Below, piece by piece: positions 8,337 to 18,985 of a DNA stretch of 23,407 bases. How positions within the stretch are numbered: position 1 is the stretch's first letter; every line of letters begins with the position of its first letter. The DNA is from Pseudomonadota bacterium. GTDB taxonomy: Bacteria; Chloroflexota; UBA6077; JAJPHF01. A model generated the notes under the pieces. It saw nothing but the letters and a program-made list of their open reading frames with translations, was not told where the DNA came from and searched no databases. The position numbers were made by a program, and so were the translations under genes. The stretch lies in assembly GCA_021325365.1 (NCBI GenBank), contig JAJPHF010000075.1, positions 1 through 23,407 on the forward strand. Reading direction: 5' to 3'.

Positions 8337-9341
8337 ATGGCCGCCGCTCCCGGGCTCCCGTTCAGCCGCCGCGGCTTCGTCCGGGCCGCGGGCCTGGCCA
8401 GCCTCGGGCTGCTGGCGGGGTGCGGGCGGCTACCGGGCCAAGAACAGCACTCGGTGCGGATGCCCGTGGTCGGGGTGCTCACCGCCGCCACGTTCTGGCT
8501 CGATAGCTTCCGGCAGGCCTTGCGGGACCACGGCTACGTGGAAGGCCAGAATGTCGTCGTCGAAGTCCGCTCCTCGGAAGGGCAAGAAGAGCCCCTCGCG
8601 GACTACGCGCGCGAACTGGCCCGCCTACCGGCTGACGTGATCGTGGTCGGCGGTCTGCCCGCCATTCGCGCGGCGATGGCGGCGACGAGCCGCATTCCGG
8701 TCGTCATGGTAGCTGGCGGCGCGGACGCCGTCCGAGCGGGCCTGGTGGCCAGCCTGGCACACCCCGGCGGGAACGTGACCGGGCTAACCGATTTTGCCGA
8801 GCAATTGACGGCGAAACGCCTCGAGCTCATCTGCGACACGGTCCCCGGGGTCCGCCGCGTGGGGGTCGTCCGGGTGCCCGCGGCTACCGCCGAGCAATGG
8901 CAGGAAGCCACGGTCGCCGCGCAGCAGCTGGGCATCGCGCTGGAGGCGTTAGACGTGCAAGCCCCGCAGGATCTGCCTACGGCCTTGTCGATCGCCGCCC
9001 AGAACGAGTATCAAGCCATCCTGCTGCTGCTCGACCCCCTGACCGTGCTCCACCAGGCTCAGCTTGGGCAGCTGACGTTGGCGAACCACCAGCCGGCGAT
9101 CCATAGCATGAAGGGGTTCGCGGCCGCGGGCGGTCTGCTCGCCTATGGTCCGAGCATAACGGACCTGGCGCGCCGAGCCGCGGCCTACGCGGACAAGATC
9201 CTCAAGGGCGCCAGCCCCGCCGACCTCCCCGTCGAGCAACCTACCACCTTTGACTTCGTCATCAACCTCCAGACCGCCCAGGCGCTCGGCCTCACCATCC
9301 CCCAGCACGTGCTGCTCCAGGCCACCGAGATGATCCCGTAG
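8337..9341 (+). CDS. ABC transporter substrate-binding protein of the ABC_sub_bind (PF04392) type, Tat-exported lipoprotein
   Basis: A 334-residue protein; ATG at 8337 with GAGG 6 bases upstream. The N-terminus carries a twin-arginine motif SRRGFVRAAG (10-19) and then a lipobox LLAGC (C29), so it is probably exported folded and lipidated. The body has the family pattern VGVLTAATFWLDSFRQALRDHG, YARELARLPADVIVVGG, AHPGGNVTGLTDF, KRLELICDTVPGVRRVGVV and DKILKGASPADLPVEQPTTFD. This matches the PF04392 family, whose members bind amino acids such as tryptophan or related solutes. The usual partner permease and ATPase genes are absent, so it is an orphan binding protein or uses a transporter elsewhere. 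It has its own -10-like box, so it may not be co-transcribed with the 7051 gene. Confidence 0.9.
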   Translation: MAAAPGLPFSRRGFVRAAGLASLGLLAGCGRLPGQEQHSVRMPVVGVLTAATFWLDSFRQALRDHGYVEGQNVVVEVRSSEGQEEPLADYARELARLPADVIVVGGLPAIRAAMAATSRIPVVMVAGGADAVRAGLVASLAHPGGNVTGLTDFAEQLTAKRLELICDTVPGVRRVGVVRVPAATAEQWQEATVAAQQLGIALEALDVQAPQDLPTALSIAAQNEYQAILLLLDPLTVLHQAQLGQLTLANHQPAIHSMKGFAAAGGLLAYGPSITDLARRAAAYADKILKGASPADLPVEQPTTFDFVINLQTAQALGLTIPQHVLLQATEMIP

Positions 9342-9492
9342 CCCGGCACGGATACCGTCGATCGTTCCCCGTTCCAGCCAAGACGATTCTCGCTGTCCAC
9401 ATTGTGCGAGTCAGCTTCGCGGGGATAGTCGGCCAGAGTCGGCCTTCGCCGTGGACGGCGCGGCGCCGCGAGCGCTTGGCGAGCGCGGTATC

Positions 9493-9598
9493 CTAGGGCA
9501 CTAGCACGACCTTGCCCGTCGCCTCGCCCGCCTCCACCAGCTCGTGCGCCTCGCGGGCACGCGCCAGCGGCAGCACCGCCGCGATCAGCGGCCGGATG
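9493..9598 (-). pseudogene. 3' remnant of a zinc-type MDR dehydrogenase gene (duplicate of 14510-14615)
   Basis: This 106-base stretch matches 14510-14615 with 5 mismatches (about 95% identity by my count), same orientation. It keeps the last 34 codons and the stop (from IRPLIAAVLPLA to KVVLVP) but has no upstream gene body: similarity stops abruptly at 9598/9599. The five changes fall in four codons, three silent and one changing Gln to Arg. This pattern suggests the fragment came from a coding paralogue rather than from a neutral copy of the gene at 14510. It could also be one end of a duplication made by island integration into the 3' end of the gene. Confidence 0.85.
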
Positions 9599-9605
9599 AA
9601 CGCAC

Positions 9606-9707
9606 CTACTCTTGAGATGCGGACGAGAGGGAGTCAAGAAGAGGCCGTATCCTGTCCCAATCTACACCGGCTGAGCGAAACGAGGGAGCGTTCCCTTCAA
9701 AGACATA
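9606..9707 (-). pseudogene. Out-of-frame 3' continuation of the 9697-10221 gene
   Basis: One base out of frame with the end of the 9697-10221 frame, the minus strand continues for 33 codons (YVFEGNAPSF to SSASQE) and stops at 9606-9608. The YVFEGNAP segment aligns with YVFDLRLGAP in the paralogue at 11326-11898 and AYIF in the one at 10243-11238. Removing one base from the AA near 9708-9709 would join the frames as RPQHILYVFEGN. So the gene is frameshifted, either truly or by sequencing error. The restored stop lies only 8 bases from the dehydrogenase remnant. Confidence 0.6.
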
Positions 9708-10221
9708 TTAGGATGTGCTGCGGGCGGTCCCCGCTCGGCGACAGAAAATCGCCCTCCAAGATCACGAGTGTCAGAGGATGCACCGTGCGGGGAGTCGCGT
9801 AGGGGCCACTCGCTATAACCCCGCCCGAGCGGGTCCACGGTGGGGGCGATGGCAGTGGCTCGTAGCATCCCCCAACCGGAATCGCCAGAGTGCGAAGATC
9901 GCAATCTGTCACGGCCCGGGCGACAATAATTCTCGGGCTGCCACTCACTACCCTATACTCCATGAGGACTTCGGTGAGCGCGTGCCGAGCGAGTTCATAC
10001 TGCCACGACGACGTGACACCCTCTCCAGAACACTCTTGGGCTTCCACGTGCGTCGCCATGGTCAGATTGGTCGCTAGCAGCAAGCTCGCAACCGCTATAT
10101 GCCGCACGATATCCATCCGTACGGAATCTGCACGCTTCAACCGGCAACCCGCTATCTCCAACGTCGCCGCCAAGGCAGCCAGGGGGCGGTAGACCCGCGC
10201 GGGCACCTCCTCAATGCTCAT
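9697..10221 (-). CDS. Hypothetical secreted-type protein, paralogue A of a local three-gene family, 3' frameshifted
   Basis: A 174-codon frame. The ATG at 10221 has GGAG 6 bases upstream and lies 21 bases after the stop of the 10243 gene, suggesting an operon. An internal ATG at 10116 would give a cleaner signal peptide (MDIVRHIAVASLLLATNLTM.., possibly cleaved near VEAQ), so the start is uncertain. The region YRVVSGSPRIIVARAV..DLRTLAI..LTLVILEGDF aligns with FRSVNGTPEVKLARPV..LPSLGL..LMLVILHGDF of the gene at 11326 and with the gene at 10243. It ends early after GDF because of a frameshift; the rest of the domain is in another frame (9606-9707). GC content is visibly lower than in flanking genes. 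Function is unknown. Confidence 0.6.
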   Translation of the reverse strand: MSIEEVPARVYRPLAALAATLEIAGCRLKRADSVRMDIVRHIAVASLLLATNLTMATHVEAQECSGEGVTSSWQYELARHALTEVLMEYRVVSGSPRIIVARAVTDCDLRTLAIPVGGCYEPLPSPPPWTRSGGVIASGPYATPRTVHPLTLVILEGDFLSPSGDRPQHILICL

Positions 10222-10242
10222 CCGAATCTCCGGCGTGACGCA

Positions 10243-11238
10243 CTACTGGCTAGTGACCGTCAGCCGGCCGCGCCACCGAGTCGAGCTATCTGAGGCAGCA
10301 TAGTCGTAAGCGCCAGGGAGGTTGAAGATCACTGACCAGCGCCCAGCGGGCGTGATCGGTCCAGAACCCCAACCACCAGACGCCCCCCCTACTGGCGCGA
10401 TTGCGACGGGCATTTCGCTATCGTTCACCCAGGTCACTTGTGTGCCAACTGGTACTGTAATCTCCGGCGCCTGTACACCGCGCTCGTCAATATGCAATCG
10501 TACATACTGCATAGGTCCAGTAGTGCCACAGACGGTGGGGATGAAGTAAGCACTCCTTGGGTCACAGAGCGTCGGCCGCATCACTCCGCACGTATCAACC
10601 TCAGTCACCAGGGCCGTCTCGGCACAGCTCGGCGGCACCACGGAGTAGTTTCCCTGCCCCGGAAATACTGGTTGCCCCGGTCTACGGCCCGGTGGGGGTA
10701 GTGTGGCAAGCCCTGGTGGGCTTACCGGTGACATGCCCGTGGATGTTGAGAGATGATCGTCCGGCAAATCGGGGTTGCTGAGCAGCGTCCGGAATGAACC
10801 GCCGCGGCGGGACGCTTGCCACGCCAGTAGGCTCTCCGAGCGAGGATGGAAGATATATGCTATGTAGCGCACTCGAAACCGCTCGGCGTCTGGCCCCAGG
10901 CTGTCATACTTTGAACTATCCCACCACGGGATAAGCCCGAGATCTCCTCCGATCACAACCACCACAAGCGTGGTATCCTCATCCGACTGAAGCCAATCCA
11001 TTAGGCCAAAACTGGATAATTCCGATGTCTTGAGTATCCGGACCAGGGCCGTTTGTAGCTCCCCGCTAAGGATGCGAAAGTGCCTCTCAGTGTAGTCGAG
11101 CGCGGTTTGCTGCATCGAGTCGAACGTGCCATCGGCGCTATGGTCCACTCCGCTTGCTGGGCTTATCGTCCCACTTGCCACCGTTACGTGAGAGAAGAGT
11201 CCGAGGAGCGCCAAGATTCCCAGCACTTCCTTCCGCAT
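10243..11238 (-). CDS. Hypothetical exported protein, paralogue B: family domain plus cupredoxin-like domain without copper ligands
   Basis: A 331-residue protein from ATG 11238. An N-terminal signal peptide is visible (MRKEVLGILALLGLFSHVTVASG). Residues about 42-160 form the domain shared with the genes at 9697 and 11326 (FRILSGE, LSSFGL, LVVVVIGGDL, YIAYIF, RRGGSFRTLLSNPDLP). A Pro/Gly-rich linker (about 165-203) and four cysteines (C205, C217, C225, C237) follow. Residues about 258-329 resemble a plastocyanin-like domain (ITVPVGTQVTWVN, GSGPITPAGRWSVIFNLPGAYDYAAS, RGRLTV). The usual His, Cys, His and Met copper ligands are all replaced, so it probably does not bind type 1 copper. Two sampled 60-base lines are 58% GC, against 73% in the 7501 line. 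The function is not known. Confidence 0.75.
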   Translation of the reverse strand: MRKEVLGILALLGLFSHVTVASGTISPASGVDHSADGTFDSMQQTALDYTERHFRILSGELQTALVRILKTSELSSFGLMDWLQSDEDTTLVVVVIGGDLGLIPWWDSSKYDSLGPDAERFRVRYIAYIFHPRSESLLAWQASRRGGSFRTLLSNPDLPDDHLSTSTGMSPVSPPGLATLPPPGRRPGQPVFPGQGNYSVVPPSCAETALVTEVDTCGVMRPTLCDPRSAYFIPTVCGTTGPMQYVRLHIDERGVQAPEITVPVGTQVTWVNDSEMPVAIAPVGGASGGWGSGPITPAGRWSVIFNLPGAYDYAASDSSTRWRGRLTVTSQ

Positions 11239-11265
11239 CGCTGGACCTACCCCACTGGTGAGATT

Positions 11266-11298
11266 GGCAGCAGGGGCCTCTGCCCGGCCCCTGCTGCC
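11266..11298. terminator. Perfect 13-bp stem-loop between paralogues C and B
   Basis: GGCAGCAGGGGCC (11266-11278) and GGCCCCTGCTGCC (11286-11298) pair perfectly around the loop TCTGCCC. It lies between the stop of the 11326 gene and the start of the 10243 gene, both on the minus strand. It could reduce read-through from C into B or protect an mRNA end. There is no T-run, so it is not a classical intrinsic terminator. Confidence 0.55.
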
Positions 11299-11325
11299 TG
11301 CCTACACATGGTTATAGCGCCTAGC

Positions 11326-11898
11326 CTAGTGAGGAGGGAGGGTCGGCATCGCTGCTGGAGACGCAGGGAGCGTAGCGCCGTACGGTCCGCGATAGGGCGG
11401 CGCCGTCGGCGCAGGCGTCAGAGCATAGCCAGCGGGCAGCGGTGGTGCCGCGACCGGGGTCGGGTCGAGCGGGAGGCTGGGATCATTGAGAGCCTGACGG
11501 AAGCGGCCGCCTCGCGGAGAGGTCGCTATTAGAGTCGGCGCCCCTAACCGCAGGTCGAACACATAGGCGACGTGGCTCACCTGTATCTTCCGACCAGGCG
11601 TGATATTACGATCCCAGCCGGGAAAGCCCCCGGCTATATCGAAGTCACCGTGCAGGATAACTAACATGAGTGGTGGGTCATTGTCAGCGTAGGGCACTCC
11701 GTAAAGACCGAGCGATGGCAGTTGTGAGGCCAGCACCGGCCGAGCGAGTTTCACTTCGGGAGTGCCGTTCACTGAGCGGAAATTAGCGCGGCTGAACTCA
11801 ATTGCTCGCTGCGCCACGTCCTGAGCGGACGCGCCTACTAATGGTGCCAATAGTGTAGTATAGGCAGCACGGTATTCTGGTATGGTGGCCTCGACCAA
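11326..11898 (-). CDS. Hypothetical protein, paralogue C of the local family, 5' end uncertain
   Basis: The annotated frame has 190 codons from a TTG at 11898, with no ribosome site seen. The frame stays open upstream to a stop at 12091-12093 and reads like protein (for example FGYDGATFSPATAPGWGHL), but has no ATG, GTG or TTG before 11898. The true start may be lost or shifted. The shared domain is clear: FRSVNGTPEVKLARPV, LPSLGLYGVPY, LMLVILHGDFD, HVAYVFDLRLGAP, SPRGGRFRQALNDPSLP. A proline-rich tail follows (about 145-190), with no cupredoxin domain, unlike paralogue B. A sampled 60-base line is 53% GC. Export is not shown for this copy. Function is unknown. Confidence 0.6.
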   Translation of the reverse strand: MVEATIPEYRAAYTTLLAPLVGASAQDVAQRAIEFSRANFRSVNGTPEVKLARPVLASQLPSLGLYGVPYADNDPPLMLVILHGDFDIAGGFPGWDRNITPGRKIQVSHVAYVFDLRLGAPTLIATSPRGGRFRQALNDPSLPLDPTPVAAPPLPAGYALTPAPTAPPYRGPYGATLPASPAAMPTLPPH

Positions 11899-12028
11899 GT
11901 AGAGATGGTCAGATAGAGCATGATCGGATAGATGCCCCCATCCCGGAGCCGTCGCGGGTGAGAACGTGGCACCATCGTAGCCGAAAGTGCTCGGATTGGC
12001 AATCGGAAGAAATTCGGAGTTTTCAACC

Positions 12029-12058
12029 AGAGACCCCCGAATTTTTTCGGGGGTCTCT
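12029..12058. terminator. Perfect 13-bp stem-loop downstream of the response regulator gene
   Basis: AGAGACCCCCGAA (12029-12041) and TTCGGGGGTCTCT (12046-12058) pair perfectly around a TTTT loop. On the minus strand it lies about 110 bases past the response regulator stop and before paralogue C, so it fits a transcription end. The bases after the stem are not T-rich in either direction, so efficient intrinsic termination is not assured. The open frame upstream of paralogue C runs through it. Confidence 0.6.
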
Positions 12059-12167
12059 ACAAGGCTGCGGTAGGCGGAGCGGAGCGCAGTCTAGATCCAA
12101 GCGGGTTGCTTGACTGGGCGGCCGACGTTGCTGGGGTGCAGTCGGGGTCCACCGGAGACGTGCATGA

Positions 12168-12926
12168 TCATGCCACAGAGATCCTGTTTCCATCCGTGGC
12201 CGGTAGGGTGAGGAGACCGCTTTGGAGAGCCTGGACCACCACGCCCATGCGTGAGTGCACGTGGAACTTCTCGATGAGATGGGAGAGATGATCCGCCGCC
12301 GTCTTGGCTGACAGACCAAGAGCGGCGGCGATTTCGTCGTTGCTGTGATCGAGGACCAACAACTGAAGGCTCTCGCGTTCCCGTGGAGTGAGGTGCTCTC
12401 GGGCAATGCTCGTAGCCGGCTCTACGTGGAGGTCCACTTGGACCGTGGACCCTATGCCCGTCCGTCCGGTCTCGACGACTTGCACCGCCTGGCCCTGCGC
12501 CACGAGACGGACCGCCTTGGCGAGCTCCGCGGCTCCCACCGTCTTGGGTAGATACCCCAGGGCGCCCATCTGCCGGAGCGTTCGCTCGTCACCGCTGTTG
12601 GGATCGCCCGTAATGGCCAGGACGGCCACCTCGGGCGCGCGGCGGCGTACCTGCCGGGCTACCTCGATGCCGCTCATATCCGGCAGCCGCACATCCAGCA
12701 GCAGGACATCGGGGCGATGCGCCTCAACCAGCGGCAGCGTCTCGGCGCCCAGCATGGCCGTGCCCACTACCTGGACCCCGCCGGCTCTCTCCAGCCACGT
12801 CTGCATCCCGGCCAGAACCATGGGATGGTCGTCCACGATCACGACGCGGATCGAGGCTGGACAATGCGCCCACACCTTCGCGCGCTCCCGCATTGGCCCA
12901 GCGGCCTGGTCCCCATCTGTCGCCAT
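12168..12926 (-). CDS. NarL/LuxR-family response regulator
   Basis: A 252-residue protein. The ATG at 12926 is chosen because GGGAG lies 8 bases before it; a longer frame from 12998 lacks such support. The receiver domain (about 26-142) has acidic pair D32/D33, phosphoacceptor D78 in LLLDVRLPD and K128 in YLPKT. The LuxR-type helix-turn-helix (about 178-235) reads LTPRERESLQLLVLDHSNDEIAAALGLSAKTAADHL. On phosphorylation it should bind DNA as a dimer. The double-PAS protein gene (13154-14281) lies upstream on the same strand, 227 bases away, but that protein has no ATPase domain, so the phosphodonor is not evident. The 12-bp palindrome GCATGATCATGC overlaps its stop codon. Confidence 0.93.
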   Translation of the reverse strand: MATDGDQAAGPMRERAKVWAHCPASIRVVIVDDHPMVLAGMQTWLERAGGVQVVGTAMLGAETLPLVEAHRPDVLLLDVRLPDMSGIEVARQVRRRAPEVAVLAITGDPNSGDERTLRQMGALGYLPKTVGAAELAKAVRLVAQGQAVQVVETGRTGIGSTVQVDLHVEPATSIAREHLTPRERESLQLLVLDHSNDEIAAALGLSAKTAADHLSHLIEKFHVHSRMGVVVQALQSGLLTLPATDGNRISVA

Positions 12927-13153
12927 TGGTCTGCTCCCCCACGCTGGGCAGTGGTGCCCCAGCCGAGCGCAGCATCCGGCAGCCGGTGTATGGATCAAAC
13001 GATGGGGGAGGCAAAATGTTACACGAGACGCAGGTGCCGGGCGCAGCCGACCAAGCGCGCCCAGCCGGAGAGGTGGTGCAGGGCACAGGCACCAGCGGTC
13101 CTCAGCGCTTACTGAGGCGGCACCGGGCGGGCGCCGGCGTGCCGTCCGCCGGG

Positions 13154-14281
13154 CTACTCGCTGGATCGGTCGAGGTCCAGGACGGGACCCACCACGGTGT
13201 CTTTCGTGGCGACACGCACGACCCGCCGGAGCTTCGCGACCCCCTCGAGCGCCGTGTAGAGGCTTTCCCGCGCGCCCTGCAACAGCTTAGCCAGGTCTGC
13301 CGGCACCGCCACTTGGTGGGGCACCCACTCCAAGATGCTCAAGGCTGCCACCATGTTGTTGTTCAACAGGTCGGCCAGCTCGCGGCCCGCGAGGACCACC
13401 CCTTCCAGCCGGGCCTCCTCCTCAGCCTTCTTGAGTAGCAGCTCTTGCGCGTGCTTGCGTTTGGTGATGTCCCGGAAGTTGCCCACGACGGCCTGGACGC
13501 TGGGCTCCGCCAGCCGATTGGTCCAGACCGTTTCCAGCCAGCGCCAGGTGCCATTGCGGTGCCGGACCCGCATCTGGCCCGTCACGCTGCTGCCGGGCCG
13601 CTGGAGCACCGCCTGGAACAGCCTCCAGGCCTTCTCGCCGTCGTCCGGGTGCATCCGCTCGAAGACGCTCCGTCCCGTCCGCTCCTCGGCCCGGTAGCCG
13701 AGCATACGGGTCATGGCTGGGCTGACGTACTGAATCGTGCCGCTGGCATTTACAAGCCCAATAGCATCCGCGCTGTGCTCGACAAGAGCGCGGAAGCGCT
13801 GCTGGCTCTGGCGCATCGCCACCTCCGCCTGGCGGCAGGCCGAGATATCGCGCGCGGCCACGATGAGCCGCTCGGCGCCTCGCTGATCTGAGCTGAGCGA
13901 GAGCTGTACGGTAGCAAGGATGTGCTCCCCGGTCTGGCGAAGCAGGCGCCACTCTCCGCTGTAAGCAGTACGGTCGGCAAGCACGGCCTGGACGGCGGCC
14001 CGCGCCTGTGGGAGATCGTCAGGGTGAATCCGATCGAAGAGCGTAGTCTGGATGAGCGCATCCGGCTGGTAGCCCAGCACGCGGGAATGCGAGGGAGACG
14101 CGTAGAGGATCGTACCCTCCCGATCGAGCAGTGCGACCAGATCCAGCGAGTTCTCGGCGAGCAAGCGGTAGCGCTCTTCGCTGAGGCGGAGGGCGTGCTC
14201 CGTAGCGTGCAGCCGTGCGAGCACGTCCCGGCCTGGTTTGTGGCCGCCTCGCGCCGGCCTTGGCCGCCGTCCCATCGCCAT
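13154..14281 (-). CDS. Double PAS-domain protein with degenerate histidine-kinase-like C-terminus
   Basis: A 375-residue cytoplasmic protein. The ATG at 14281 is preferred to the GTG at 14284 because GGAAGGGTG ends just before it. Two PAS/PAC units are visible: about 37-155 (ERYRLLAENSLDLVALLDREG to VAARDISACR) and about 160-282 (FRALVEHSADAIGLVNASG to GNFRDITKRK). The C-terminal about 90 residues contain LAGRELADLLNNNMVAAL, which resembles the dimerisation helix of PAS kinases but has no histidine at the expected place. No N-, G1- or G2-box ATPase follows; the protein ends DLDRSSE. It is therefore probably a sensory partner or a kinase remnant, not an active kinase. Its neighbour downstream is a NarL-type regulator. 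Confidence 0.85.
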   Translation of the reverse strand: MAMGRRPRPARGGHKPGRDVLARLHATEHALRLSEERYRLLAENSLDLVALLDREGTILYASPSHSRVLGYQPDALIQTTLFDRIHPDDLPQARAAVQAVLADRTAYSGEWRLLRQTGEHILATVQLSLSSDQRGAERLIVAARDISACRQAEVAMRQSQQRFRALVEHSADAIGLVNASGTIQYVSPAMTRMLGYRAEERTGRSVFERMHPDDGEKAWRLFQAVLQRPGSSVTGQMRVRHRNGTWRWLETVWTNRLAEPSVQAVVGNFRDITKRKHAQELLLKKAEEEARLEGVVLAGRELADLLNNNMVAALSILEWVPHQVAVPADLAKLLQGARESLYTALEGVAKLRRVVRVATKDTVVGPVLDLDRSSE

Positions 14282-14509
14282 CACCCTTCCGCTGACCTAG
14301 CGGCCCGGTGCGCTGAGCAGCCCAGCCTATCAGCGCGCTGGTTATCCACTAACGCATCTAGAATAAACCGGTCCGCGGACAGCGTGTTACAAGGACGCGC
14401 CTCACGCTGGCTGACCGCAGCGCAGCGCTGAGAGTGGTCGCGCGCGGGGCCGTTCCACAAACGATCGAGGTTGGCGGTGAACGCGCAGAGGCAGGAGGCC
14501 GCCGGGCGA

Positions 14510-15541
14510 CTACGGCACCAGCACGACCTTCCCCGTCGCCTCGCCCGCCTCCACCAGCTCGTGCGCCTCGCGGGCCTGCGCCAGCGGCAGCACCGCCGCG
14601 ATCAGCGGCCGGATGTGCCCCGCCGCCGCCTCCCGGAGCGCCCGCTCCACATCCTGCGGCTCCCCGTGCGCGCCGCCGATCACCGTGATTAGCTCGAAGT
14701 ACAGCCGCCGCACGTCCAGCGGCACGATGCCGCCGCCGTGCGCCCCAATCGTGATCAGCCGCCCCTGGTAGCCAATGCTGTCGAACGCCCCCGGCCAGAG
14801 CGTCGGGTCGCCGATGTTCTCAAACACCACGTCCACCCCGCGCCCGTCCGTCAGCCGCCGGCACTCCGCCGCCAGGTCCTGCGCGCGGTAGTTCACCCCG
14901 TGGTCCGCGCCCAGCGACCGCGCCAGCGCCACCCGGTCGTCCGCTCCCGCGCCCGCGATCACCGTCGCGCCCACCTGCTTCGCCGCCTGCACCAGCGCCG
15001 ACCCGAGCGCCCCCGCGGCCCCCATCACCAGACACGTCTCGCCCGCCTGGAGCCCCACCCGCCGGATCTGCGCGTAGGCCACCGGGAAGTGGCGCACGAT
15101 CACCGTCGCCTCCGGGAACGGCAGCCCGTCGGGGATGCGGTACAGGCCCCGCGCCGGCACCACCACGTACTCCGCGTAGCCGCCCCAGCGGTGTACGCCC
15201 AGCATCCGCGGCGTCGGGCAGCCGCGTCCAGCGCCGCTCAGGCACGCCGGGCACGTCCCGCACGGGACGGTCGAGCGCGCCCCCACCCGGTCGCCCACCC
15301 GCACCCCCTCCACCTCCGGCCCGACCTTGACCACCTCGCCGGTCGGGTCCACGCCCAGCACCAGCGGCAGCGTCACGCCCCGCCGGTTGCCGTCCTGGCG
15401 CACCATCAGGTCGAGCGTGCGGTTCACCGATACCGCGTGGACCCGCAGCAGCACCTCGCCCGGCCCGGGCGAGGGAGTCGGCACGTCTTCGTAGCGCAGT
15501 ACCTCGGGGCCGCCGAACTCCCGCACGACAATCGCCTTCAT
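14510..15541 (-). CDS. Zinc-type medium-chain dehydrogenase/quinone oxidoreductase
   Basis: A 343-residue protein; ATG at 15541 with GGAG 6 bases upstream. It has the GroES-like N-domain and the Rossmann signature GAAGALGS (174-181), followed by AKQVGATVIAGAGADDRVALARSLGADHGVNYR. The structural-zinc cysteines are present (C94, C97, C100, C108 in CGTCPACLSGAGRGC). The catalytic-zinc cysteine is replaced (VNRTLDL, about 39-45) and the GHE motif reads LGVDPTGE. This fits an NADPH-dependent quinone or enone reductase more than an alcohol dehydrogenase. Its last 34 codons and stop are duplicated at 9493-9598, so its 3' end marks the border of the block to the left. Substrate unknown. Confidence 0.9.
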   Translation of the reverse strand: MKAIVVREFGGPEVLRYEDVPTPSPGPGEVLLRVHAVSVNRTLDLMVRQDGNRRGVTLPLVLGVDPTGEVVKVGPEVEGVRVGDRVGARSTVPCGTCPACLSGAGRGCPTPRMLGVHRWGGYAEYVVVPARGLYRIPDGLPFPEATVIVRHFPVAYAQIRRVGLQAGETCLVMGAAGALGSALVQAAKQVGATVIAGAGADDRVALARSLGADHGVNYRAQDLAAECRRLTDGRGVDVVFENIGDPTLWPGAFDSIGYQGRLITIGAHGGGIVPLDVRRLYFELITVIGGAHGEPQDVERALREAAAGHIRPLIAAVLPLAQAREAHELVEAGEATGKVVLVP

Positions 15542-15589
15542 CCGCCACTCCAGCGCCCCCCCAGGGTACGCCTCGCTTTCTTACTCTCT

Positions 15590-15595
15590 GTCATA
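15590..15595 (-). promoter_or_regulatory. -10-like TATGAC upstream of the dehydrogenase gene
   Basis: On the minus strand GGCGCTATGACAG lies 48 bases before the ATG at 15541. The context GCGC plus TATRNN recurs before the genes at 6309 and 21691. No strong -35 box is seen. Confidence 0.3.
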
Positions 15596-15731
15596 GCGCC
15601 TGCGCCCGCCCGCCGCCAGCACCCGCCAGTTCCCACGGCAAGCCATGCGCTGACGATTTACTAGAGAGCCGCGGGGCGCGTGGCGGGCGGTGGAGGCACA
15701 AGCCCGTGAGATCCCACCGCGCGAATGCGAA

Positions 15732-16154
15732 TCAGGTTTTAAAGGGATTCTGGATGATCAGCCCCTCGATTCGCTGGCCATGCTGCAAGTCCTCGCTGTA
15801 CAGCCGGGTGCAGCCCGCCGCGAGCGCGGCGGCGACGATCAGCGCATCGTAGAAGCTGAACTGATAACGGGCCTGCAAGTCGAGCGCGCGGTCATACAGC
15901 GCCTGCGTGGGCATGACGTGCCACAGCGGCACCAGCACGTCGTTCAAGAGGTCCCGGGCATCGTCAAGGGTCACCGGGGTCTGGAACTTGCGGGTGACCA
16001 CGTTCAGTGTCTCTTGAACTACCTGGAAACTGATGTGCGCATTGCCGCTGCGAAGCCCATCCATGACCAGCCGGCGCGCCGTGGCTTGTTTCGCTGGATG
16101 GCTCGAGTCGACCAGACAGACAAGAACGTTGGAGTCAATAAAATCAGCGCTCAT
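15732..16154 (-). CDS. vapC: PIN-domain toxin ribonuclease, VapC-type
   Basis: A 140-residue protein. The ATG at 16154 overlaps the end of the antitoxin gene by 11 bases, the usual translational coupling, and is preferred to the GTG at 16166. PIN acidic residues are in place: D7 (ADFIDSNVL), E48 (FQVVQETLNV), D103 (FSFYDALIVAAAL) and D122 (YSEDLQHG). Family knowledge: VapC toxins are Mg-dependent RNases that cleave tRNA or rRNA and are held inactive by VapB. Here the partner is the ribbon-helix-helix-like protein at 16144-16368. The system is chromosomal, next to the dehydrogenase gene. The RNA target cannot be told. Confidence 0.92.
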   Translation of the reverse strand: MSADFIDSNVLVCLVDSSHPAKQATARRLVMDGLRSGNAHISFQVVQETLNVVTRKFQTPVTLDDARDLLNDVLVPLWHVMPTQALYDRALDLQARYQFSFYDALIVAAALAAGCTRLYSEDLQHGQRIEGLIIQNPFKT

Positions 16155-16368
16155 TCGTCTCGTCACGGGTGAACGTTCGCCCCCCTGAGGTCGCGTAGCT
16201 GCTGATTCGCTCGATCGCCGCCATGGCCTTCTCCACCCGCTGCTCGCGCCCCGTATAATCGGCCAGCCAGCGCCGGAACGCCTCGTTCAGAGTCGTGTGC
16301 TCGGCACGCGCCCGCGCGCGGGCAGCCTCGATAAGCCTCTCGTCAGCGCTCAACGTGATGTTCTTCAT
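16144..16368 (-). CDS. vapB: Ribbon-helix-helix-type antitoxin, VapB-like
   Basis: A 74-residue protein; ATG at 16368 with AGGAG 8 bases upstream. The N-terminal half, MKNITLSADERLIEAARARA, and the following HTTLNEAFRRWLADYTG are typical of a ribbon-helix-helix DNA-binding antitoxin. The C-terminal tail (about 45-74) would wrap the toxin. It is the first gene of the pair with the PIN toxin, overlapping it by 11 bases. A 30-bp dyad at 16394-16423, 26 bases upstream of the start, is the likely autoregulatory site. Confidence 0.88.
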   Translation of the reverse strand: MKNITLSADERLIEAARARARAEHTTLNEAFRRWLADYTGREQRVEKAMAAIERISSYATSGGRTFTRDETNER

Positions 16369-16393
16369 GCCCGTGTCTCCTGTCCTGGGCGCT

Positions 16394-16423
16394 ACACGAA
16401 CTCAGTGTACACAATGATCGTGT
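16394..16423. promoter_or_regulatory. 30-bp dyad operator upstream of vapBC
   Basis: The core palindrome GTGTACAC (16405-16412) and flanking arms ACACGA (16394-16399) and TCGTGT (16418-16423) share the same centre (16408.5); 11 of 15 base pairs match. It lies just upstream of the antitoxin start, where VapB or VapBC complexes typically bind to repress their own promoter. A -10-like TACACT on the minus strand overlaps the core. Confidence 0.65.
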
Positions 16424-16521
16424 GGCCTGCTTGCCCGCTATCTGCGTCCCTAGCCCCTCCCCCTGCTCGTCGAGCACGCCAGGGATCCGCGGTCAGCCCC
16501 CGCGGCGCCGCCCCCCGCCCG

Positions 16522-18350: not shown

Positions 18351-18725
18351 TTAAGGTGGCGGCCTCGTGTCCAGCCACAGCAAGAGATCGTCCTGGGCGT
18401 CGGGCGAATAGGTGTCGAGGTGACGAGCCACCGCGCGAAGAAGGACGCCGAGGTCGGATATCTGGGGCGCTACGACGATGCCTCGGTGCATACGGCCGTG
18501 GGCCTTCCACTCGGCGTCGAGAGGGCAGAAGTCCGTGGTGTTGAATGTGAGGATGGCCCGGCCGGCTCGCGTCGCGTACGCGAGCTGGTCCTCATCTGGG
18601 ATTCGCTGATTCGCTCGTCCTGCCTCCTCACAACTCTCGGCATCGTAGCCTCGGCGTCGGAGGGATCGAGCTAGCTCAGGCGGGATCATCTCGTCGGTGT
18701 ATAGCCGGATGCCTAGCCCGGCCAC
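18351..18725 (-). CDS. DUF5615 PIN-like toxin
   Basis: A 124-residue protein. A GTG start at 18725, with AGGG 7 bases upstream, overlaps the end of the DUF433 gene by 13 bases and gives the typical N-terminus GIRLYTDEMIPPELARSLRRRGYD. The longer frame to 18794 lies inside the partner gene and is rejected. Acidic PIN-like positions are visible: D11 (YTDEM), D44/D46 (IPDEDQLAYA) and D65 (ILTFNTTDF). Family knowledge: DUF5615 proteins are Mut7-C/PIN-like presumed RNases commonly paired with DUF433 antitoxins. It converges on the amidohydrolase gene with 53 bases between. Confidence 0.88.
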   Translation of the reverse strand: MAGLGIRLYTDEMIPPELARSLRRRGYDAESCEEAGRANQRIPDEDQLAYATRAGRAILTFNTTDFCPLDAEWKAHGRMHRGIVVAPQISDLGVLLRAVARHLDTYSPDAQDDLLLWLDTRPPP

Positions 18726-18985
18726 GGACGGCCCTGAAGCTGGGCGAGCGTACGGGCATTGCGCTCCCGGTCCTCGTCCACGCGCGCGGGGCAAGCCGCG
18801 TAGTAGTCGAGCGCATCTTGAAGCTGCGAGCGCTCCAAATACGGGAACAACTCGTGTACCCGCTCTAACGAGCCAAGATCACGATAGTAGCTCACCAGCA
18901 CCCATACAGGGATGCGAGTCCCGCGCACCTGCGGATACCCGCCGCCCACGCCGGGAATCTCGTCTACCAGCTGCCGCTTGATCAT
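18713..18985 (-). CDS. DUF433 antitoxin
   Basis: A 90-residue protein; ATG at 18985 behind AGGGGA. The core has the DUF433 pattern: a start strand with PQVRGTRIPVWVLVSYYRDLGSLERVHELFPYLERSQLQDALDYYA, including GTRIPV and the helix-turn-helix-like stretch. The usual partner, DUF5615, overlaps its 3' end. Family knowledge: DUF433 proteins are MerR/HTH-like antitoxins that probably repress their own operon. A 10-bp palindrome at the presumed promoter (19013-19022) supports this. Confidence 0.9.
   Translation of the reverse strand: MIKRQLVDEIPGVGGGYPQVRGTRIPVWVLVSYYRDLGSLERVHELFPYLERSQLQDALDYYAACPARVDEDRERNARTLAQLQGRPWPG

Follow-up and report, generated by a model that had tools for sequence, protein, structure and literature searches.

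Direct repeats of a dehydrogenase gene end around a 4.9-kb block of lower GC content in a bacterial contig: a possible insertion at the 3' end of a gene

How does the 3' end of a gene come to lie twice on the same strand, with a group of other genes enclosed between the two copies? This question is raised by contig JAJPHF010000075.1 of assembly GCA_021325365.1 (named Pseudomonadota bacterium, and placed in the Chloroflexota in the GTDB lineage), of which the whole analysed stretch, 23,407 nucleotides long, is called the window throughout. The window holds an intact gene for a zinc-binding, quinone reductase-like dehydrogenase on the minus strand (14510-15541; 343 amino acids, domains ADH_N and ADH_zinc_N), and the last 106 bases of this gene are found once more at 9493-9598, the two copies bounding a block of 4,911 bp (9599-14509). 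An original prediction on this DNA had seen in the arrangement the geometry left by an element that integrates into the 3' end of a gene and restores it. The present analysis leads us to favour, tentatively and a little short of an even chance, a foreign islet that entered the dehydrogenase gene at its 3' end by site-specific recombination, with the integrase lost or acting in trans and a remnant left behind that resembles a cis-mobilizable element (CIME).

The argument starts from the repeat itself. The segments 9493-9598 and 14510-14615 lie in the same orientation and agree at 101 of 106 bases (95.3%, five mismatches), and when the window is compared with itself by BLASTN they form the top match with an expectation value (E) of 7e-43, the runner-up being a 32-bp palindrome with E = 5e-7. 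The repeated unit consists of 34 codons, the stop codon and one further base, and its boundaries are sharp: one lies at the stop codon, the other past the 34 codons, and similarity breaks off at both. Identity is unbroken over stretches of 44 and 38 bp, the former being the longest exact match. On the right, the unit closes the intact gene and would be an attL-like attachment (att) site; the left copy, also on the minus strand, is a bare tail of the last 34 codons and stop, and would be the attR-like one. In a low-threshold tblastn search of the window with the dehydrogenase protein, the tail is recovered with E = 8e-14, the next non-self match among those listed has E = 0.07, and no further remnant of the gene was detected among the matches listed. 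Both the repeat as first described and the contrast between a gene intact on the right and a tail alone on the left have thus been upheld, and a 3'-end repeat with one copy completing the gene, as expected for an integrative genomic island in the 3' end of a gene, is present.

The block between the repeats differs from its surroundings in composition. Its GC content is 0.639, compared with 0.728 and 0.706 in the flanks and with a minimum of 0.690 among 170 overlapping stretches of the same size taken from the flanks. It holds five genes, every one on the dehydrogenase strand: three of no known family (9697-10221, 10243-11238 and 11326-11898, named here by their first positions), one for a NarL/LuxR-type response regulator (12168-12998; domains Response_reg and GerE) and one for a double-PAS protein (13154-14284), which adjoins the right repeat and had been passed over in the earlier account of the block's genes. 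In this order their GC content at third codon positions (GC3) is 0.69, 0.64, 0.61, 0.77 and 0.83, the value for 11326 being taken over the frame up to 12090, against 0.86-0.97 in seven flanking genes; that of the dehydrogenase gene is 0.96. The response regulator gene, which had been thought host-like in GC, turns out to lie under all seven flanking genes measured in both GC (66.4%) and GC3 (0.765). The codon-adaptation index is also lower in the five block genes than in the seven flanking ones, with a reference set that included six of those seven and so favoured them. Change-point scans, made in stretches of our own choosing, placed the left break at 9595 in both stretches (support 9564-9635 and 9564-9636) and, over 12400-15500, the right break at 14481 (14365-14840).

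Two of the block proteins, those of 10243 and of the double-PAS gene, were searched against about 5.8 billion proteins by a method that relies on shared five-residue words. The 10243 protein (331 amino acids), the product of an ORFan gene, had itself as the sole match at E <= 1e-3. The PAS protein had 566 matches, the next after itself being 31% identical, and the best identity among the 120 listed of these, self aside, was 54% over 35% of the query. Since GC3 is lower in all five genes and the two searched proteins are without close relatives, the block looks foreign, and at least its left half probably is so, judging from these sequence features.

Regarding the way in which such DNA could arrive with the gene kept whole, we suggest the following course of events. 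A small foreign islet would have entered where the dehydrogenase gene ends, bringing a variant of that gene's last 106 bases and thereby keeping it whole (14510-15541), and the displaced host tail would have ended up at the far edge (9493-9598). The recombination would most likely have been carried out by an integrase since lost or acting in trans, and what is left would be CIME-like, that is, copies of an att site around a cargo of the response regulator, the PAS protein and the genes of no known family, with no integrase. Insertion at the end of the gene is the simplest account by a single event; that the islet came in one insertion, that an integrase acted, and which of the two copies is the older are all points that we infer. 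The integration first proposed is supported by the geometry, by the composition of all five genes, by the two searched proteins being without close relatives and by the comparison with e14 in icd given below; the failure to find an integrase speaks against it.

As to the older copy, the two tails differ at one of 35 residues, an Arg in the left and a Gln in the right. Among the dehydrogenase relatives P0002-P0012, known as proteins without their DNA context and 75-91% identical (the closest 90-91%), the Arg also occurs in the nearest three, P0002-P0004, and in P0011, the Gln in P0005-P0008 and P0010, and neither in P0009 and P0012. By this single residue the left tail fits a displaced native copy.

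A number of results weigh against the insertion of an islet by an integrase, and the first of them concern mobility. No integrase, transposase or relaxase was found by Pfam scans in any open reading frame (ORF) of at least 100 amino acids in the block, or in the shorter ones scanned, which agrees with the absence of an integrase noted before; nor was any found in the flanks among the ORFs scanned there (likely genes and others, about half of those of at least 100 amino acids). The tyrosine or serine integrase by which an integrative genomic island is recognized is thus not seen in the element. In viral contigs the tail pattern had 0 matches, and of 39 stretches matched by the dehydrogenase none was confirmed as encoding the gene. 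Calls that lack an integrase or fall below 5 kbp are regarded as probable false positives in a survey of genome islands (PMC10936790); by this standard the block would be rejected for want of an integrase, and its size, 4,911 bp or 5,017 bp including one repeat copy, is borderline. The same survey concedes that its comparative approach misses old islands stripped of those features (PMC10936790).

The searches for an empty site and for recurrence brought no support either. A site with one tail and no block was not found, since none of the genomes searched yielded a dehydrogenase more than 60% identical. When the protein was compared with the genome collection, the best 80 of 216 relatives were kept, with a top identity of 60%. 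At E <= 1e-130 the gene was met in 0 of 297 genomes around G006, 0 of 95 in the set of G001 and 0 of 148 in that of G007, at E <= 1e-135 in 0 of 400 for G002 and 0 of 246 for G015, and at E <= 1e-120 in one of 148 genomes from the class of G006 (59% identical); these sets overlap in part, many of their genomes had only part of the first-look candidates scored, and the searches had no positive control above 60%. Among plasmids, all but one of 3,686 records of dehydrogenase relatives were below 60% identity, and the best listed had 55%. Two other proteins of the window were compared with genomes in like manner: the amidohydrolase is 66-71% identical in four of 15 (two titled Deltaproteobacteria, one Binatia and one Proteobacteria), and among 59 genomes around one of these four no additional one came up, while CstA attains at most 61%, in 4 of 23 genomes. 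Nor was the gene end seen as a recurrent target: a tail duplication of comparable length was seen at none of 80 distant relatives, 53 of them with at least 5.2 kb downstream, this test covering 80 of 81 loci (L074, which stops short of the gene's end, was excluded). The matches met there were in pieces of 42 and 38 bases at L058, and of 23 bases between two dehydrogenase genes about 3 kb apart at L065.

Composition, too, does not speak with one voice. The low-GC segment that scores best over the whole window, 9580-12440, starts at the left repeat and stops in the middle of the block, inside which a break lies at 12443 (GC 0.606 against 0.683). When the scan was extended over 12400-16500, the strongest break moved to 15723, past the dehydrogenase gene, where GC drops again. 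Because the tails themselves are GC-rich, the analysis was rerun without the repeat bases. The left edge then spans 8947-9635 or 8891-9611 and the right one 14364-14908, wider than before though still compatible with the repeat positions, and shuffled blocks reached the signal in 0 of 300 cases in four of five settings and in 3 of 300 in one. The block is therefore marked off more clearly at its left edge than at its right, and more than one source may have contributed to it.

A two-part composition suggests at least two events, and this leads to the explanation by duplication and deletion, in which a tandem second dehydrogenase gene diverged under selection and was deleted save its tail, foreign genes being gained in between in at least one separate event. 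We consider this unlikely, while noting that it has further points in its favour. Two such genes about 3 kb apart do exist at the L065 locus, and four of the five mismatches of the repeat fall at third codon positions, as two coding copies would show. The mismatches are spread over four codons, of which three are silent and one gives the Arg or Gln; three silent codons of four have by themselves a P of about 0.08 under random change. That the first 38 bases of the repeat carry no mismatch was also considered, and dropped since the changes are too few to carry weight. Duplication and deletion, however, requires at a minimum a duplication, a large deletion and a foreign gain, with the edge of the deletion adjoining the foreign DNA, and besides the tail none of the remnants that a second copy should leave was listed by tblastn in the window. 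Moreover, the silent pattern is seen equally at a true integration.

The true integration used as yardstick, a single case and not a survey, is that of e14 in icd of Escherichia coli K-12, where the annotation (our locus L086) gives a cryptic prophage that starts inside icd, followed by the pseudogene icdC. The end of icd and icdC share 165 bp with 92.7% identity, and 9 of the 11 changed codons are silent. An incoming tail is expected to differ silently because it is derived from a working gene of another lineage, and the objection raised in the original prediction, that three silent codons of four fit the remnant of a diverged paralogue, therefore fails. By this analogy the pattern in the dehydrogenase pair (95.3%, three of four) resembles that of icd and the objection is removed, with integration not thereby proven, since two coding paralogues would differ alike. 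A practical rule follows, that silent changes in an orphan tail are no argument against integration.

The closeness of the two tails bears on another route as well, in which DNA of a related strain with the block beside its own tail was added by RecA-type recombination and no integrase was ever at work at the locus. Such capture, whether of a circle or of DNA joined by homology at one end and illegitimately at the other, would likewise result in two tails. Apart from their one residue, the tails are nearer to each other than either is to any of 39 compared relatives, so that the donor would be close kin; the unbroken identities of 44 and 38 bp are at hand, and an integrase is not needed. On the other side, the donor must already carry the foreign block exactly at the end of the gene, which merely moves the question, and no close relative of the two searched block proteins was found. 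On balance this seems to us distinctly unlikely.

Very improbable, finally, is an artefact of assembly, by which contigs of two related strains were joined at the shared tail. The contig presumably originates from a metagenome, where this could happen, whereas an exact match of at most 44 bp is short for a false join. In addition, the clusters of the 10243 and PAS proteins each represent five contigs (up to 143,321 bp), some of which may span the repeats.

Turning to the genes of the block themselves, they had been said to include three paralogues, and this is secure for one pair. The proteins of 10243 and 11326 are clearly paralogous (alignment score 167, against a best of 70 in 300 shuffles), that of 9697 has some resemblance to 11326 (60, best shuffle 50), and between 9697 and 10243 no relation was detectable (36, shuffle mean 33). 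By eye a frameshift had also been suspected in 9697; this was given up when 24 of 500 shuffles equalled its alignment score of 31. The C terminus of the 10243 protein gives a sub-threshold cupredoxin-like match (amicyanin model; 29 bits, cut-off 110); a structure predicted for this protein without an alignment had a mean pLDDT (predicted local distance difference test) of 36 and was discarded. The same protein matched three stretches in viral contigs, none of them confirmed, and nothing in phages and plasmids. A plasmid search with the PAS gene together with the tail gave two weak tail-only matches, which lie inside near full-length dehydrogenase relatives (34% identical) and were rejected. 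No match to the kinase domains HisKA or HATPase was obtained in the double-PAS protein, although the response regulator adjoins it. Of the PHROGs families, 12 are matched by the response regulator and one by the PAS protein, which we take as shared domains; none of these is an integrase by its description, most being without description. In PADLOC the response regulator had two weak hits (best E = 6e-8), and Rfam gave no match at gathering scores.

The frame of 11326 has its first start codon, a TTG, at 11898 but continues open upstream to 12090. As no ATG, GTG or TTG precedes the start in this open frame, the gene may be truncated at its 5' end. Between it and the response regulator gene lies a perfect inverted repeat (12030-12057; 12-bp arms, 4-nt loop), and the 91-nt region around it folds with z = -4.1; a terminator scan of this region gave none.

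Two further places of the window show dips in GC. Just past the start of the dehydrogenase gene, at 15690-16172, GC falls locally to about 0.63, which the change point at 15723 marks, and an ORF of 160 amino acids there has no Pfam family match. In the other dip, at 18351-18985, a gene for a DUF5615 PIN-like protein is preceded on the same strand by an ORF of 90 amino acids (18713-18985), which we take to resemble an antitoxin of the DUF433 type; a toxin-antitoxin pair is possible.

To what known systems, then, does the locus compare? Integrases that cut inside a gene are described as bringing a replacement end on attP, with identity blocks of att sites up to about 250 bp (PMC10111431), and the completion of the target gene is ascribed to many attP sites (PMC12884075). 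Our locus shares with e14 in icd an intact gene and, oriented like it, an orphan 3' tail, the element lying between them, mostly silent changes in the tail, and little similarity upstream of the tail start. It differs in that e14 measures 15.2 kb and has an annotated integrase and excisionase, while the block measures 4.9 kb and none was found; scattered similarity also goes on downstream of the icd tails, and none is evident for those of the dehydrogenase. The icd gene is reported to be used by prophages besides e14 (PMC12803456).

Tyrosine-integrase integrative and mobilizable elements (IMEs) are described as commonly targeting the 3' ends of tRNA and protein genes, and such elements and mobile genomic islands at guaA, rpsI, trmE and yicC resemble the present case in that they target a protein gene at its 3' end and that a direct repeat keeps it whole (PMC5704250). 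They differ from it in encoding the integrase, and a zinc-binding dehydrogenase is not a target among the table entries in the available part of that source (PMC5704250). A literature search for genomic islands at alcohol dehydrogenase genes led to an IS5-bounded gene, and such a target may still be reported elsewhere.

There is a likeness, too, with CIMEs, which retain att sites, have lost recombination and transfer genes, measure 1.2-13 kb and are frequent in Streptococcus salivarius, where eight of those surveyed encode PAS/PAC proteins, according to the part of the survey at hand (PMC7563491). In the present block, too, no recombination or transfer genes were found, attL/attR-like copies are kept as putative att sites with cargo between them, the size falls within that range and the cargo includes PAS domains; a foreign cargo would be compatible with the GC3 of all five genes and with two of them, those searched, being without close relatives. 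It differs in that its putative att sites are known from sequence and that no parent integrative and conjugative element (ICE) or IME and no tandem partner is seen, CIMEs having been detectable in that survey, as there described, only where an ICE or IME stood in tandem with them (PMC7563491). Put in full, the reading would be that of a stand-alone mobile islet without integrase which used the 3' end of the dehydrogenase gene as attachment site and restored the enzyme, carrying a sensory pair of PAS protein and response regulator and a new protein family, one member with a cupredoxin-like tail, in a lineage without a close dehydrogenase among the genomes searched; with all of these parts together it is possible though doubtful. 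If the favoured account of insertion is right, the genes of no known family are marked as cargo, and a metabolic dehydrogenase joins the protein genes whose 3' ends are used by integrating elements, in a lineage that seems poorly covered in the searched genome collections. The islet would then be a further example of an established kind of event, integration at the 3' end of a gene being itself well known.

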